DNA of 64,000 bases from the NCBI RefSeq assembly GCF_900182605.1, contig NZ_FXTB01000003.1, forward strand, positions 372,001 through 436,000. The letters run 5' to 3'. The number at the start of each line of letters is the position of its first letter. Within the stretch, counting starts at the first letter, position 1. Source of the stretch: Saccharicrinis carchari (GTDB lineage Bacteria; Bacteroidota; Bacteroidia; Bacteroidales; Marinilabiliaceae). Shown here one piece after another: positions 41,914 through 47,192 of the stretch. The notes under the pieces were generated by a model. The model saw nothing but the letters and a program-made list of their open reading frames with translations. It searched no databases and had not been told where the DNA came from. The position numbers were made by a program, and so were the translations under genes.

Positions 41914-42117
41914 ATGAAAAAAATTATTGACTTTTATATGGAAGGTTTTAACAACTTACCCGATTGGGCTCGTTCCATCTGGTTTATCATCTTGTTGAAA
42001 CTATTCATTTTCTTTTTTATTTTTAAAATATTCTTTTTCCAAAATAAGCTTAAAAAAGATTTTGATACCGACAGAGAGCGGGCAGATCATGTTATTGAGC
42101 AAATCACAACACCATAA
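41914..42117 (+). CDS. DUF4492 small membrane protein of the cytochrome bd operon
   Basis: A 67-residue protein with a short amphipathic N terminus (MKKIIDFYMEGFNNLPDWAR), one long membrane helix (about 22-42, rich in Phe and Ile) and a charged tail. The DFY-x-x-GF and W-x-x-S-I-W pattern matches DUF4492. This family is repeatedly found directly upstream of cydA in Bacteroidota and Campylobacterota. Here it is 11 nt before cydA, so it is co-translated and probably helps assembly or function of the bd oxidase; no mechanism is known. Confidence 0.88.
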   Translation: MKKIIDFYMEGFNNLPDWARSIWFIILLKLFIFFFIFKIFFFQNKLKKDFDTDRERADHVIEQITTP

Positions 42118-42128
42118 AATTTTGTTAA

Positions 42129-43727
42129 ATGTTAGAGTCTTTAGATTTATCACTGGTAAACTGGTCGCGTGGACAATTTGCGCTGACAGCCATGTACCAT
42201 TGGATTTTTGTGCCATTAACATTGGGGCTGGGTTTTATACTGGCCTTTATGGAAACCAGATATGTTCAAACGGGTGATCCGGAATGGAAAAGGATTACCA
42301 AGTTTTGGATGAAGCTTTTTGGAATAAACTTTGCCATTGGCGTTGCCACCGGTATTATTTTAGAATTTGAATTTGGCACCAATTGGAGTAACTATTCCTG
42401 GTTTGTGGGTGACATATTTGGTGCCCCACTGGCGATTGAGGGAATCATGGCCTTTTTTCTGGAAAGCACTTTTATTGCCGTTATGTTTTTTGGTTGGAAC
42501 AAGGTGAGTAAGAAGGCGCACTTAATATCTACCTGGTTAGTTGCGGTGGGAGCAAGCCTATCTGCTGTATGGATACTGGTGGCCAATGCCTGGATGCAAG
42601 ATCCTCGTGGCATGCGGTTCAACCCCGACACGGCACGCAACGAGATGGTCAGTTTTTGGGATGTGATACTTTCGCCCACTGCCGTCACCAAGTTTTTGCA
42701 TACCACCACTTCGGGCTTTGTGCTTGCTTCTGTGTTTGTTGTTGGCGTTAGCGCCTGGTTCCTACTCAAGCGCCGAGAGGTGCTTTTTGCCAAACGGAGC
42801 ATGGTTGTGGCCGCTACTTTTGGTGTTATATCTTCCATTATGCTCATTGCTACAGGCGATAGTTCGGCTCGCGAAATGGCGGAAACGCAACCCATGAAGT
42901 TTGCCGCCATGGAAGCACTGTACGAAGGACAGACCAATGCACCATTGATAGCCATCGGATTAATTGGTGACCCGCAGGACGATCCGATGGACAGTACAGC
43001 AAGAGAAGATTTTAAAATTAAAATAGAGATACCCAATGCACTCTCCTATATGGCTTTCTTAAAAGCCGATGCCTTTGTGGCGGGTATAAAAGATTTAGTG
43101 TTGGGTAACGAAAAACACGGCATAATGTCGTACAAGGAAAAGATAAAAAGAGGATACGAGGCTCAACAAACCCTTGCACAGTATAAAAAAGCAAAAAAGG
43201 AGAATAGTGAGGATTTGCCTATGTTACGCGCCAAGTTTGAGGATCAGGAATGGATAGACAATTACTTTAATTACTTTGGTTATGGTAGTTATTACGATCC
43301 GGACCCTACGCAACTCGAAAAAAATGCCTTTAAAATAGTTCCTCCAATCTCACTATCGTTTTATTCGTTCCATATTATGGTGATATTAGGTGGGCATTTT
43401 TTACTGCTGTTTATGATTGTGTTGTGGCTCCTTTACAAAAACAAGCTGGCCAATAACAAAATTGTCTTGTGGACTGCCGTATGGTCAATACCATTGGCAT
43501 ATGTAGCATCGCAAGCCGGTTGGATTGTAGCCGAGGTGGGGCGCCAGCCATGGGTAGTGCAGGATTTAATGACAACAGCCATGGCTGTTTCACAAATAGA
43601 TACCGGTTCGGTGATGATTACCTTTTGGCTGTTTGCATTTACTTTTACTGCGCTGCTGGTGGCCGAAATAAAAATAATGACCAAACAAATTAAAATAGGA
43701 CCAACTAAACAAGGAGGAAAACAATAA
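42129..43727 (+). CDS. cydA: Cytochrome bd quinol oxidase subunit I
   Basis: A 532-residue membrane protein that oxidises quinol and reduces O2 to water with high affinity. Heme ligands are visible as H24 (TAMYHWIF), H191 (FLHTTTSGF) and M417 (FHIMVILGG). The Q-loop after about residue 255 is of the long type (segments KDLVLGNEKHG and YKEKIKRGYEA match the E. coli insert). About nine helices. It supports life at low oxygen and protects against NO and sulfide. Its stop overlaps the cydB start by one base (TAATG). Confidence 0.96.
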   Translation: MLESLDLSLVNWSRGQFALTAMYHWIFVPLTLGLGFILAFMETRYVQTGDPEWKRITKFWMKLFGINFAIGVATGIILEFEFGTNWSNYSWFVGDIFGAPLAIEGIMAFFLESTFIAVMFFGWNKVSKKAHLISTWLVAVGASLSAVWILVANAWMQDPRGMRFNPDTARNEMVSFWDVILSPTAVTKFLHTTTSGFVLASVFVVGVSAWFLLKRREVLFAKRSMVVAATFGVISSIMLIATGDSSAREMAETQPMKFAAMEALYEGQTNAPLIAIGLIGDPQDDPMDSTAREDFKIKIEIPNALSYMAFLKADAFVAGIKDLVLGNEKHGIMSYKEKIKRGYEAQQTLAQYKKAKKENSEDLPMLRAKFEDQEWIDNYFNYFGYGSYYDPDPTQLEKNAFKIVPPISLSFYSFHIMVILGGHFLLLFMIVLWLLYKNKLANNKIVLWTAVWSIPLAYVASQAGWIVAEVGRQPWVVQDLMTTAMAVSQIDTGSVMITFWLFAFTFTALLVAEIKIMTKQIKIGPTKQGGKQ

Positions 43728-44860
43728 TGTTCGGAGATTTATCGCACTTAGAATTACAGCAATATTGGTGGTTCCTGATTTCCTTATTAGGTGCACTGCT
43801 GGTGTTTTTAATGTTTGTACAGGGAGGACAAACACTATTCTGGACACTGGGGAAAACAAAAGATGAAAAAACCATTTTAGTAAATGCGCTGGGGCGTAAA
43901 TGGGAGTTCACTTTTACTACCCTGGTAACATTTGGCGGAGCTTTTTTTGCTTCTTTTCCTTTATTCTATAGCACCAGTTTTGGTGGAGCTTACTGGGTTT
44001 GGATGATTATACTTTTTGCTTTTGTTATTCAGGCCATCTCGTATGAATTTCGGAGTCGCCCAAAAAATGTATATGGGGCAAAAACTTACGAGGTATTTCT
44101 TTTTATCAATGGCTTGATAGGTACTATTTTTATTGGAACGGCCGTGGCCTCGTTTTTTACCGGCTCAAATTTTTCAATAAACGAATACAATCAATCTAAA
44201 TGGGACAACGTATATCATGGTTTGGAATTGGCCTTAAACCCGCATAATCTGACATTGGGTTTAACCGTGTTTTTTTTAGCCAGAGTATTAGCCATTCAGT
44301 ATTTTATGAATGCCATCGACCACGATGTCATACTTAAAAGGGCACACAAGCAATTGCTTATCAATGGTCTTTTATTTGTGGTTTTGTTTGTAACATTTAT
44401 TGCTTGGCTGATGTTGAGGGATGGATTTGCCGTTAACCCAGGCACCAAAGAGGTGTATATGGAACCCTATAAGTATTTTAACAATTTAATGGAGATGCCA
44501 CCTGTTGGCATCGGGTTTTTAATTGGAGTACTATTGGTGCTTTTTGGAATGGCAAAAAGTTACCTGAAGCCCGGTACCAAAGGAATTTGGTTTAGCGGAC
44601 CCGGAACAGTGCTGACCGTCGTGATGCTTTTTTTGCTGGCCGGGTATAACAACACATCATTTTACCCATCGGTTACAAGCCTGCAAAGTTCGCTAACGAT
44701 TGAAAATGCGAGTTCGAGCCATTTTACACTTACGGCCATGAGCTATGTTTCGCTGATGATACCTTTTGTGATGGCTTATATTTGGTACGCCTGGAGAGCT
44801 ATTAATAACCGGAGAATTGATCAGGAGGAAATGGAATCGGATGATTTACATGTGTATTAA
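43727..44860 (+). CDS. cydB: Cytochrome bd quinol oxidase subunit II
   Basis: A 377-residue membrane protein with about nine helices, partner of CydA. The N-terminal LQQYWWFLISLLGALLVFLM segment with its acidic and Trp residues, FVQGGQTLFW, and the later GRKWEFTF stretch fit the family. It starts within the cydA stop codon, so translation is coupled. It is followed 126 nt downstream by a short CydX-like frame. No cydC/cydD assembly genes are in the window. Confidence 0.95.
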   Translation: MFGDLSHLELQQYWWFLISLLGALLVFLMFVQGGQTLFWTLGKTKDEKTILVNALGRKWEFTFTTLVTFGGAFFASFPLFYSTSFGGAYWVWMIILFAFVIQAISYEFRSRPKNVYGAKTYEVFLFINGLIGTIFIGTAVASFFTGSNFSINEYNQSKWDNVYHGLELALNPHNLTLGLTVFFLARVLAIQYFMNAIDHDVILKRAHKQLLINGLLFVVLFVTFIAWLMLRDGFAVNPGTKEVYMEPYKYFNNLMEMPPVGIGFLIGVLLVLFGMAKSYLKPGTKGIWFSGPGTVLTVVMLFLLAGYNNTSFYPSVTSLQSSLTIENASSSHFTLTAMSYVSLMIPFVMAYIWYAWRAINNRRIDQEEMESDDLHVY

Positions 44861-44985: not shown

Positions 44986-45132
44986 ATGAAATACTTACAC
45001 GAAATATTATGGTACATGAGTTGGCCATTGCTTATTGTAATAAGCCACTATACAGTGAAATGGGCAATCCGAAAATTTGAAAAAGAAAATAAAGATATAA
45101 TAGAAACAGAGACAGAATCTACAAATTCGTAG
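44986..45132 (+). CDS. Small membrane protein, candidate CydX-like third subunit of cytochrome bd
   Basis: A 48-residue frame starting MKYLHEILWYMSWPLL, with one membrane helix (about 4-24) and a charged C-terminal tail (KFEKENKDIIETETE). The W9-Y-x-x-W13-x-L15 pattern resembles the start of E. coli CydX (W-Y-F-A-W-x-L), a small subunit that stabilises the hemes of cytochrome bd. It is the first open frame after cydB on the same strand, and its ATG is preceded by an A/T-rich stretch typical of Bacteroidota translation starts. The N-terminal part before the tryptophans is longer than in CydX. The role is inferred from motif and position. Confidence 0.65.
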   Translation: MKYLHEILWYMSWPLLIVISHYTVKWAIRKFEKENKDIIETETESTNS

Positions 45133-45190
45133 TGTCTCAACGAGCTGCCAGCATTTGCTTTATTACAAAAAAGGTAGCACGGTTTGTTTG

Positions 45191-45233
45191 CATAACAACA
45201 ACGGCAGTACTATTAGCTGCCGTTGTTGTTATG
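45191..45233. repeat. Perfect 17-bp inverted repeat after the cytochrome bd operon
   Basis: CATAACAACAACGGCAG (45191-45207) and its exact complement (45217-45233) flank the loop TACTATTAG. It lies 58 nt after the small CydX-like frame. No T-tract follows on either strand, so it is not a classical terminator, but it may end the cyd transcript or protect its 3' end. Confidence 0.7.
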
Positions 45234-45365
45234 GTAAAAAGCAGCTTCACAACTATCCACAGCTCACTTCTCTACACTACTCAAACACAGGGTTAAATAG
45301 CTTTAATTACAATCCCTTATGCTTTTTTTTTAAAATCAAAATAAAGTATAAACCGAAATAAACGC

Positions 45366-45395: not shown

Positions 45396-47192
45396 ATGCA
45401 CGACATAAGGAATATCGCAATTATTGCGCACGTGGACCATGGCAAAACTACCTTGGTAGATAAGATGTTAATGGCAGGGAAACTGTTTAAGGATCATCAG
45501 GATGTCAAGGATCTTTTCATGGATAACAACGATCTGGAAAGAGAAAGAGGAATAACGATTCTATCGAAAAATGTTTCGGTAGTTTATAAAAACACAAAAA
45601 TTAATATAATTGACACTCCGGGCCACTCCGATTTTGGAGGCGAAGTAGAAAGGGTATTAAATATGGCCGATGGTGTTTTATTGTTGGTAGATGCCTTTGA
45701 AGGACCCATGCCGCAAACGCGCTTTGTGTTACAAAAAGCCCTTAGTCTTGGATTAAAGCCCATTGTGGTAATTAATAAGGTGGATAAGCCCAACTGCCGC
45801 CCCGAGGAGGTACAAGAAGCTGTTTTCGACCTCATGTTTAATCTGGAGGCGACAGAAGATCAGCTGGATTTCGTAACCATTTACGGCTCAGCTAAAAATA
45901 ACTGGATGAGTACCGACTGGAGGAAACAAGCCGAGGACATATCGGCGGTTTTTGATGCGGTTTTAGAAAATATCCCAGCCCCAAAAATAGTTGAAGGCAC
46001 CCCCCAGATGCTCATCACCTCTTTAGATCATTCACCTTATACAGGACGGATTGCCATTGGTCGTATTCAAAGGGGCGAGCTAAAAACTAATCAGCAAGTT
46101 GCTTTGGTAAGCCGGGATGGCTCCATCACTAAAACTAAAATTAAAGAAATCAATGTTTTCGATGGCTTAGGTCGTACTAAAGTAAACGAGGTGAAATGCG
46201 GTGAGCTTTGTGCACTGGTAGGCTTGGAGAAATTTGATATTGGCGATACAGTGGCCGATGCGGAAAACCCCGAATCGCTGGATCCTATTGCCATAGATGA
46301 GCCCACCATGAGCATGCTGTTTACCATTAATAACTCACCATTTTTTGGACAGGATGGTAAGTATGTTACTTCGCGCCATATTAAGGAGAGGTTGGATGCG
46401 GAGCTGGAAAAGAACCTGGCATTACGGGTAGAAAACACCAATTCGGCAGATGCCTGGAATGTATACGGACGGGGGGTGTTGCACTTGTCGGTACTAATAG
46501 AAACGATGCGACGCGAAGGATATGAACTGCAGGTTGGGCAGCCGCGCGTAATCATAAAAGAAATAGGAGCCATTAAACATGAGCCCATCGAGGAGCTCAC
46601 CATTGATCTGCCGGATGAGTTTGGGGGCAAAGCCATAGAAATGGTCAGTCAACGTAAAGGCGATATGCTGAGTATGGAACGTAAAGGTGATCGCGTGGTA
46701 ATTGAGTTTACCATACCCTCGCGAGGGATAATCGGCTTACGTAATGCTATGCTCACTGCCACTGCCGGAGAGGCTATTATGGCCCATCGCTTTATCGAAT
46801 TCCAGCCCTATAAAGGTGTCATAACCAAAAGAATCAATGGCTCACTTATTTCAATGGAGGATGGTGCTGCAATCCCTTATGCCTTGGACAAGCTTCAGGA
46901 TAGAGGGGAGTTTTTTGTATCGCCACAGGAAAAAATATACAAAGGCCAGGTGATTGGCGAAAACAATCGCGAAGGGGATTTAACCATCAATATTACAAAA
47001 ACCAAAAAACTCACTAACATGCGTACTTCCGGGTCGGATGATAAAGTGAAATTGGCACCGCCCATTATTTTTTCGTTGGAGGAAGCGCTCGAATATATCC
47101 AGGAAGACGAGTATGTAGAGGTAACGCCAAAGGCTATACGTATCCGGAAAATACTCCTCGAAGAGCACGAACGCAAGCGCTCGGGAAAATAA
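45396..47192 (+). CDS. typA: Translational GTPase TypA/BipA
   Basis: A 598-residue ribosome-associated GTPase involved in stress adaptation and late ribosome assembly. G1 is AHVDHGKTTL, the switch I region has RERGITILSKN, G3 is DTPGHSDFGG and G4 NKVDK. The EF-Tu-like domain 2, EF-G-like domains III and V and the BipA-specific C-terminal domain (from about 480, with NMRTSGSDDKVKL) are present at full length. It has its own promoter and shares a bidirectional terminator with the downstream convergent ABC gene. Confidence 0.97.
   Translation: MHDIRNIAIIAHVDHGKTTLVDKMLMAGKLFKDHQDVKDLFMDNNDLERERGITILSKNVSVVYKNTKINIIDTPGHSDFGGEVERVLNMADGVLLLVDAFEGPMPQTRFVLQKALSLGLKPIVVINKVDKPNCRPEEVQEAVFDLMFNLEATEDQLDFVTIYGSAKNNWMSTDWRKQAEDISAVFDAVLENIPAPKIVEGTPQMLITSLDHSPYTGRIAIGRIQRGELKTNQQVALVSRDGSITKTKIKEINVFDGLGRTKVNEVKCGELCALVGLEKFDIGDTVADAENPESLDPIAIDEPTMSMLFTINNSPFFGQDGKYVTSRHIKERLDAELEKNLALRVENTNSADAWNVYGRGVLHLSVLIETMRREGYELQVGQPRVIIKEIGAIKHEPIEELTIDLPDEFGGKAIEMVSQRKGDMLSMERKGDRVVIEFTIPSRGIIGLRNAMLTATAGEAIMAHRFIEFQPYKGVITKRINGSLISMEDGAAIPYALDKLQDRGEFFVSPQEKIYKGQVIGENNREGDLTINITKTKKLTNMRTSGSDDKVKLAPPIIFSLEEALEYIQEDEYVEVTPKAIRIRKILLEEHERKRSGK

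Follow-up and report, generated by a model that had tools for sequence, protein, structure and literature searches.

A real gene that has been overlooked lies behind cydB in the window, the 64,000-nucleotide stretch of the Saccharicrinis carchari genome analysed here. Its product is a small protein with a predicted membrane helix, and the frame is under purifying selection. Because the gene travels with the bd oxidase through part of the order Bacteroidales, the protein is likely to be a small subunit of cytochrome bd, like those of E. coli and Campylobacter. In its specific form, that of a lineage-specific subunit of the long-Q-loop bd oxidase of Bacteroidales whose helix lies on CydA and aids the haem-binding helices, we regard this reading as probable.

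Table 1. Features of the cyd locus in the window (position 1 is the first letter of the window).
Feature	Position	Strand	Evidence
DUF4492 protein, 67 amino acids, first gene of the operon	41914..42117	+	PF14899, E 6.1e-23
cydA, cytochrome bd subunit I, long Q-loop type	42129..43727	+	PF01654, E 2.1e-167
cydB, cytochrome bd subunit II	43727..44860	+	PF02322, E 1.8e-66; TIGR00203 above cut-off
Small membrane protein gene, unnamed family, proposed bd oxidase subunit	44986..45132	+	Conservation, selection, predicted helix
Hairpin, perfect 17-bp stem, 9-base loop	45191..45233		Inverted repeat read from the sequence; the drawn fold has 18 pairs

The four genes follow each other on the same strand (Table 1), and the long Q-loop of the window CydA was recognised when the protein was aligned with CydA and AppC of E. 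coli. The small gene starts with ATG, ends with TAG and encodes 48 amino acids, MKYLHEILWYMSWPLLIVISHYTVKWAIRKFEKENKDIIETETESTNS. As the original prediction had it, the frame follows cydB, and the motif W-Y-x-x-W-x-L is present as W9-Y10-x-x-W13-x-L15. The frame begins 125 bp past the cydB stop codon. A dispersed repeat was ruled out for this 125-bp gap, which occurs a single time in the genome. The distance between cydB and the small gene is at most 40 bp in 35 of the 52 loci with a measured gap, which include some places fetched twice. Such mostly short gaps fit the expectation for a single transcript, and we infer that the small gene is co-transcribed with cydAB. The genome of the window holds no second convincing match to the small gene, the next one having an E-value of 0.017.

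The stretch 45133-45300, which lies between the small gene and the following gene and contains the hairpin, has a folding z-score of -4.06. There is no run of T after the hairpin, which is possibly the end of the operon transcript; a scan for sigma-70 and terminator consensus sequences gave nothing useful. The gene following the hairpin (45396-47192, +) is one that we take to be typA-like. Linkage of the small gene to the next downstream gene was ruled out, the constant neighbour across the fetched loci being cydB.

Conservation, selection and protein anatomy

Conservation in the host family was surveyed by a protein search of 71 genomes at E<=1, which matched the small protein in 55 of them. 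Of the 52 family genomes that carry cydB, 49 have the small frame 3' of it on the same strand when the tables are compared by hand, the weakest of these copies (genome G002) having an E-value of 0.09. The three others are G069, with its copy on another contig, G044, where the cydB match is merely distant (E 5.2e-7), and G059, where cydB is present and this search found no small frame. The 19 family genomes without cydB, among them one of the same genus as the host (G045), gave five chance-level matches (E 0.087-0.67) and nothing better. Some family matches show an internal stop; in the loci read, these are the normal ends of shorter proteins of 36-44 amino acids, among which the tail varies. 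Among the first 30 loci fetched, counting that of the window, 28 have cydB just upstream on the same strand; L029 and L030 are the exceptions. A scan of named genomes gave seven loci from Labilibacter, Carboxylicivirga, Saccharicrinis and one Bacteroidales MAG, and in all seven the small frame is preceded by DUF4492-cydA-cydB.

In 16 close relatives, codons 1-36 keep their register and have no gaps; the frameshifts between such relatives, which the original prediction had named as evidence against itself, are absent. Over these codons pN/pS is 0.22 in the host genus (8 genomes, 28 pairs), with 212/132/470 differences at the three codon positions, and 0.16 in a sister genus (8 of 14 genomes), with 222/49/526. 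The other frames of the same letters gave 0.93 and 1.38 in the former and 1.01 and 3.14 in the latter, i.e. a range of 0.93-3.1 against the two values of the small frame. Because the synonymous sites are almost saturated (pS 0.76 and 0.82), both ratios are upper bounds. The codon-substitution analysis proposed as a check came out in favour of a gene, and a chance frame or artefact is ruled out by conservation, codon pattern and linkage to cydB.

Residues were counted in 103 distinct sequences of the small protein, whose length ranges from 34 to 55 amino acids in 48 family members. Conserved are W9 (82/102), Y, L or F at position 10 (100/103; Y or F in 68, Y in 50), W13 (77/103), P14 (88/103), I17 (93/103), S20 (72/103), Y21 (88/103; His in the window's copy), F31 (69/90), E or D at position 32 (72/88) and K33 (66/87). 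The predicted motif thus holds for W9, W13 and the residue at position 10 and fails for L15, a position shared by V (37), L (31) and A (24 of 103), and both P14 and Y21 are better conserved than the motif itself. AlphaFold, run without a partner, gave a single helix of residues 3-46 (mean pLDDT 82.5, pTM 0.41). The periodicity of conservation peaks at 100 degrees, a signal reached by 372 of 5000 shuffles; it is weak and no more than suggestive of a conserved helix face. From the Lys/Arg-rich tail and the positive-inside rule, the protein is predicted to have its N-terminus outside and its C-terminus inside.

Distribution, loss and detached copies

A 41-row profile was searched against 295 Bacteroidales genomes, each at least 90% complete. 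Matches were obtained in 128 genomes at E<=0.01, and the 122 with E<=1e-3 were kept as carriers; six matches at E 0.004-0.0097 were dropped. Four of these six come from genomes that lack cydB, the frame having 166-351 amino acids in three cases and 30 in the fourth, and another, in G294, is a copy beside cydB (E 8.3e-5 in a restricted search). PF02322 was found in 221 of the 295 genomes. All 122 carriers have cydB, and at E<=1e-3 the profile found the small gene in none of the 74 genomes that do not. The place of cydB was compared for 85 of the 125 order matches, and in 81 of these 85 the small gene follows the PF02322 match on the same strand at a distance of 63-666 bp; the four outside this number are in G350, G293, G348 and G356. 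The short contig with the copy of G348 ends 216 bp away from it, on the side where cydB would be expected. In three genomes (G283, G293 and G350) there are two cydAB operons, and a small gene follows each of them; G283 also has a third PF02322 match beyond the two operons compared.

The frame is thus kept in related genomes, as 49 of 52 in the family and 122 of 295 in the order attest. The original prediction went further and proposed that Bacteroidota bd oxidases have their own small subunit. What stands of this is a conserved and selected gene tied to part of the Bacteroidales bd operons; what does not stand is the breadth of the phylum. In a sample of 345 Bacteroidota genomes PF02322 was found in 145, five of which belong to Bacteroidales, and the small gene was found only in the window's own genome. 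Within the order, 99 of the 221 genomes with cydB are without the small gene at E<=1e-3, and 77 genomes have cydB and DUF4492 with no small gene detected.

In fifteen of the 99, cydB scores far higher against PF02322 (E 1.8e-92 or lower) and is of a more distant type; in the one of them that was read (L106), CydB is 24% identical to that of the window. Reading of 20 regions from the 99 gave one diverged copy (L092), and in one of these regions (L091) cydB was not found. From the 84 negative genomes outside these fifteen, 45 cydAB operons were searched in a restricted and more sensitive way, and 44 are truly without the small gene, the exception being G294; the oxidase can therefore do without it. 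Inspection by eye of 12 negative operons in or near the carrier group gave no consistent candidate for a substitute small ORF. The annotated locus of Bacteroides finegoldii is DUF4492-cydA-cydB with nothing small annotated behind.

A tree of CydA plus CydB was made from 81 operons and E. coli, after five of 86 had been dropped for a truncated CydA; it is a quick tree in which the E. coli branch is long. On it the distribution of the 41 carriers requires 7 changes against a shuffled mean of 27.4, and none of 500 shuffles is as low. All 41 fall within one group of 51 rows (SH-aLRT 99), with the 10 non-carriers scattered inside. This pattern fits a single origin followed by about six losses.

Points against a subunit role are the 44 of 45 operons of negative genomes without the small gene and the two genomes (G356 and G069) that keep copies away from cydAB, along with the weak helix-face signal, the poor match to the CydX profile, the bare predicted helix and a published CydX topology opposite to the one proposed here. 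G069 has no copy behind cydB within the 766 bases fetched. In the region L029:1500-2600 its small gene lies just behind a gene that ends in a short tandem repeat, GAAAGAGACAACGCATGGAGT, with a partial second copy of its neighbourhood; by eye, this gene resembles one for an Rpn-type nuclease. The copy in G356 (L237:4277-4378) is found directly behind a GTPase gene, presumably MeaB-like as judged by eye, and cydB is on another contig.

Relation to known subunits and proposed role

A conserved ORF 3' of cydB, named CydY, has been described in operons with a long-Q-loop CydA and no cydX; the Trp at the start of its helix is absolutely conserved, and every operon of this kind has a small hydrophobic protein encoded upstream of cydAB (PMC4325964). 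CioY of C. jejuni, 34 amino acids long and encoded at the corresponding position, co-immunoprecipitates with CioA, and its Trp, Pro and Tyr are strongly conserved (PMC11955535). Going by the description given in these papers for Epsilon- and Deltaproteobacteria, the small protein is alike in its position directly after cydB in the same orientation, in the long-Q-loop CydA, in the small hydrophobic gene upstream of cydA, here DUF4492, and in a single helix whose Trp, Pro and Tyr are conserved (W9, W13, P14 and Y21 in the small protein). It differs in the phylum, in its length (34-55 amino acids against 34 for C. jejuni CioY) and in its Trp, since an absolutely conserved Trp is reported for CydY whereas W9 and W13 are found in 82/102 and 77/103 sequences.

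By gene order, long Q-loop and Trp/Pro/Tyr, CydY/CioY of Campylobacter appears to fit best, and going by description membership in this family is likely. As a refinement, the small protein may be a Bacteroidales branch of CydY/CioY by descent, to which we give about an even chance: the match is one with the papers' verbal description, and convergence could also produce a short hydrophobic helix that contains Trp.

Convergence in the full sense, i.e. a helix recruited once in the ancestor of part of the Bacteroidales and filling the site of CydX, is possible though the less probable of the two. It would agree with the finding of the gene only in Bacteroidales (one genome of the 345 in the phylum sample, 145 of them with PF02322), with the single 51-row group with its one gain and about six losses (7 changes against 27.4), and with scans against Pfam and NCBIfam, in which the matches of 48 members were scattered and no family was found in more than 2 of 48. 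Speaking against it, the order of the genes and the pattern of residues are the ones published for CydY/CioY, and detectable homology fades fast in sequences so short. Among the scattered matches, the best was to the known family PF16951 (MetS-type) at 4.9e-4, which was rejected as being in 1 of 48 members. A profile search of the PDB, which bears also on CydS of Geobacillus, gave only chance matches (E 1.9-2.2). CydZ (DUF2474) is also a small helix behind cydB with a Trp at the helix start (PMC4325964), but it goes with a short-Q-loop CydA, unlike the CydA of the window, and PF10617 (CydZ) is absent among the 17 families matched in the Pfam scan.

That the small protein is a divergent CydX proper is improbable. 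It shares with CydX/AppX (PF08173) of E. coli bd-I and bd-II the place behind the cydB of a long-Q-loop cydA, a single helix, the start W-Y-x-x-W and the spacing of 19 residues from Trp to acid (W6-E25 in E. coli CydX, W13-E32 here). An hhalign comparison with 13 CydX sequences gave a probability of 44% and P 2.3e-4 over 13 columns; with another setting the probability was 10.6% and the score, 20.2, exceeded all 300 column shuffles (maximum 18.3), but rotated-column controls reach 24.2 and the score therefore proves no register. PF08173 matched 0 of 48 members at E<=1, while the control, E. coli CydX, matched at 1.8e-14. The CydX motif is YxxWxxGx15[E/D] (PMC4325964), and Gly at position 16, the equivalent of CydX Gly9, was found in 0 of 103 sequences. 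Further differences from CydX/AppX are the conserved Pro after the second Trp and the basic tail. Hence the term CydX-like, used in the original prediction, can be kept for place and likely role and is to be given up for membership.

Improbable as well is a membrane protein, e.g. a stress or membrane factor, that shares only the regulation of the operon and does not bind the oxidase: the two detached copies (G069 and G356) and the repeated loss would suit it, but cydB is present in 122 of 122 carriers with none lacking it, and each cydAB operon has its own copy in the three genomes with two operons.

For a subunit of the bd oxidase, the most likely way of working is that of CydX, with the helix clamped to CydA and supporting haem binding or assembly. 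The small gene would be transcribed behind cydB, and its product would insert as one transmembrane helix with a short N-terminus outside and the Lys/Arg-rich tail in the cytoplasm. A face made up of Tyr10, Trp13, Ile17, Ser20, position 21, Phe31 and Glu32 would pack on CydA, at the site occupied by CydX in E. coli, which is at CydA helices 1, 5 and 6, and by CioY in Campylobacter. The acid at position 32 would serve as a stop at the cytoplasmic surface, and the helix would hold the haem-binding helices of CydA, so aiding assembly or stability. In the E. coli structure the C-terminus of CydX is cytoplasmic and Glu25 is called a 'float' (PMC6853902), and the topology proposed here fits this cryo-EM topology; the opposite topology of CydX was stated from earlier experiments (PMC4325964).

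With the small gene in 122 of 295 order genomes, an oxidase of these bacteria that was purified or reconstituted from just cydAB would lack one component, and a natural contrast of with and without is available within a single order. A wider proposal, unlikely in our view, is a third bd subunit of the Bacteroidales' own, unrelated to CydX, which was lost several times, perhaps mainly in host-associated lineages, while cydAB and DUF4492 were kept. If it were true, presence or absence of the helix would tune the enzyme (haem stability, oxygen affinity, turnover) between habitats of higher and lower oxygen, and nature would already offer pairs of oxidases, one with the helix and one lacking it, for comparison. 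Among the papers listed, from a library with few subscription articles and without bioRxiv preprints, none mentions in its title or in the opening of its abstract a small protein encoded behind cydB in Bacteroidales. Two papers on catalogues of small proteins do not describe the small gene in the passages covered.

DUF4492 had been put forward as a second, separate accessory gene, and its presence in 195 of the 221 order genomes with cydB and in 118 of the 122 carriers bears this out. By gene place we take the DUF4492 protein of the window to be CydW of Porphyromonas gingivalis, a likeness of position. In the passages covered, the P. gingivalis report places CydW upstream of cydA, as an accessory gene of a Bacteroidales cyd operon like DUF4492 of the window, and states that no homologue of cydX, cydY or cydZ is found behind cydAB, which is a prior statement for Bacteroidales (PMC4668044). 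CydW is thus a different gene from the small gene, at the opposite end of the operon.

A search for CydA in viral contigs gave four matches; the two that were read (L203 and L204) are neither of them a campylobacterial operon. The first (L203:3662-6640) is DUF4492-cydA-cydB on the viral-collection contig IMGVR_UViG_3300022753_003446, with no small gene seen behind cydB, and this contig is probably host DNA. Three of seven DUF4492 proteins weakly matched the model of CydP (NCBIfam NF045611), a proteobacterial small subunit, at E 0.0067-0.056, and in the reverse direction one CydP, in L204, matched DUF4492 as weakly, at E 0.073. The genes of both are found just upstream of cydA, and DUF4492, CydP and CydW of P. 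gingivalis may be one family.
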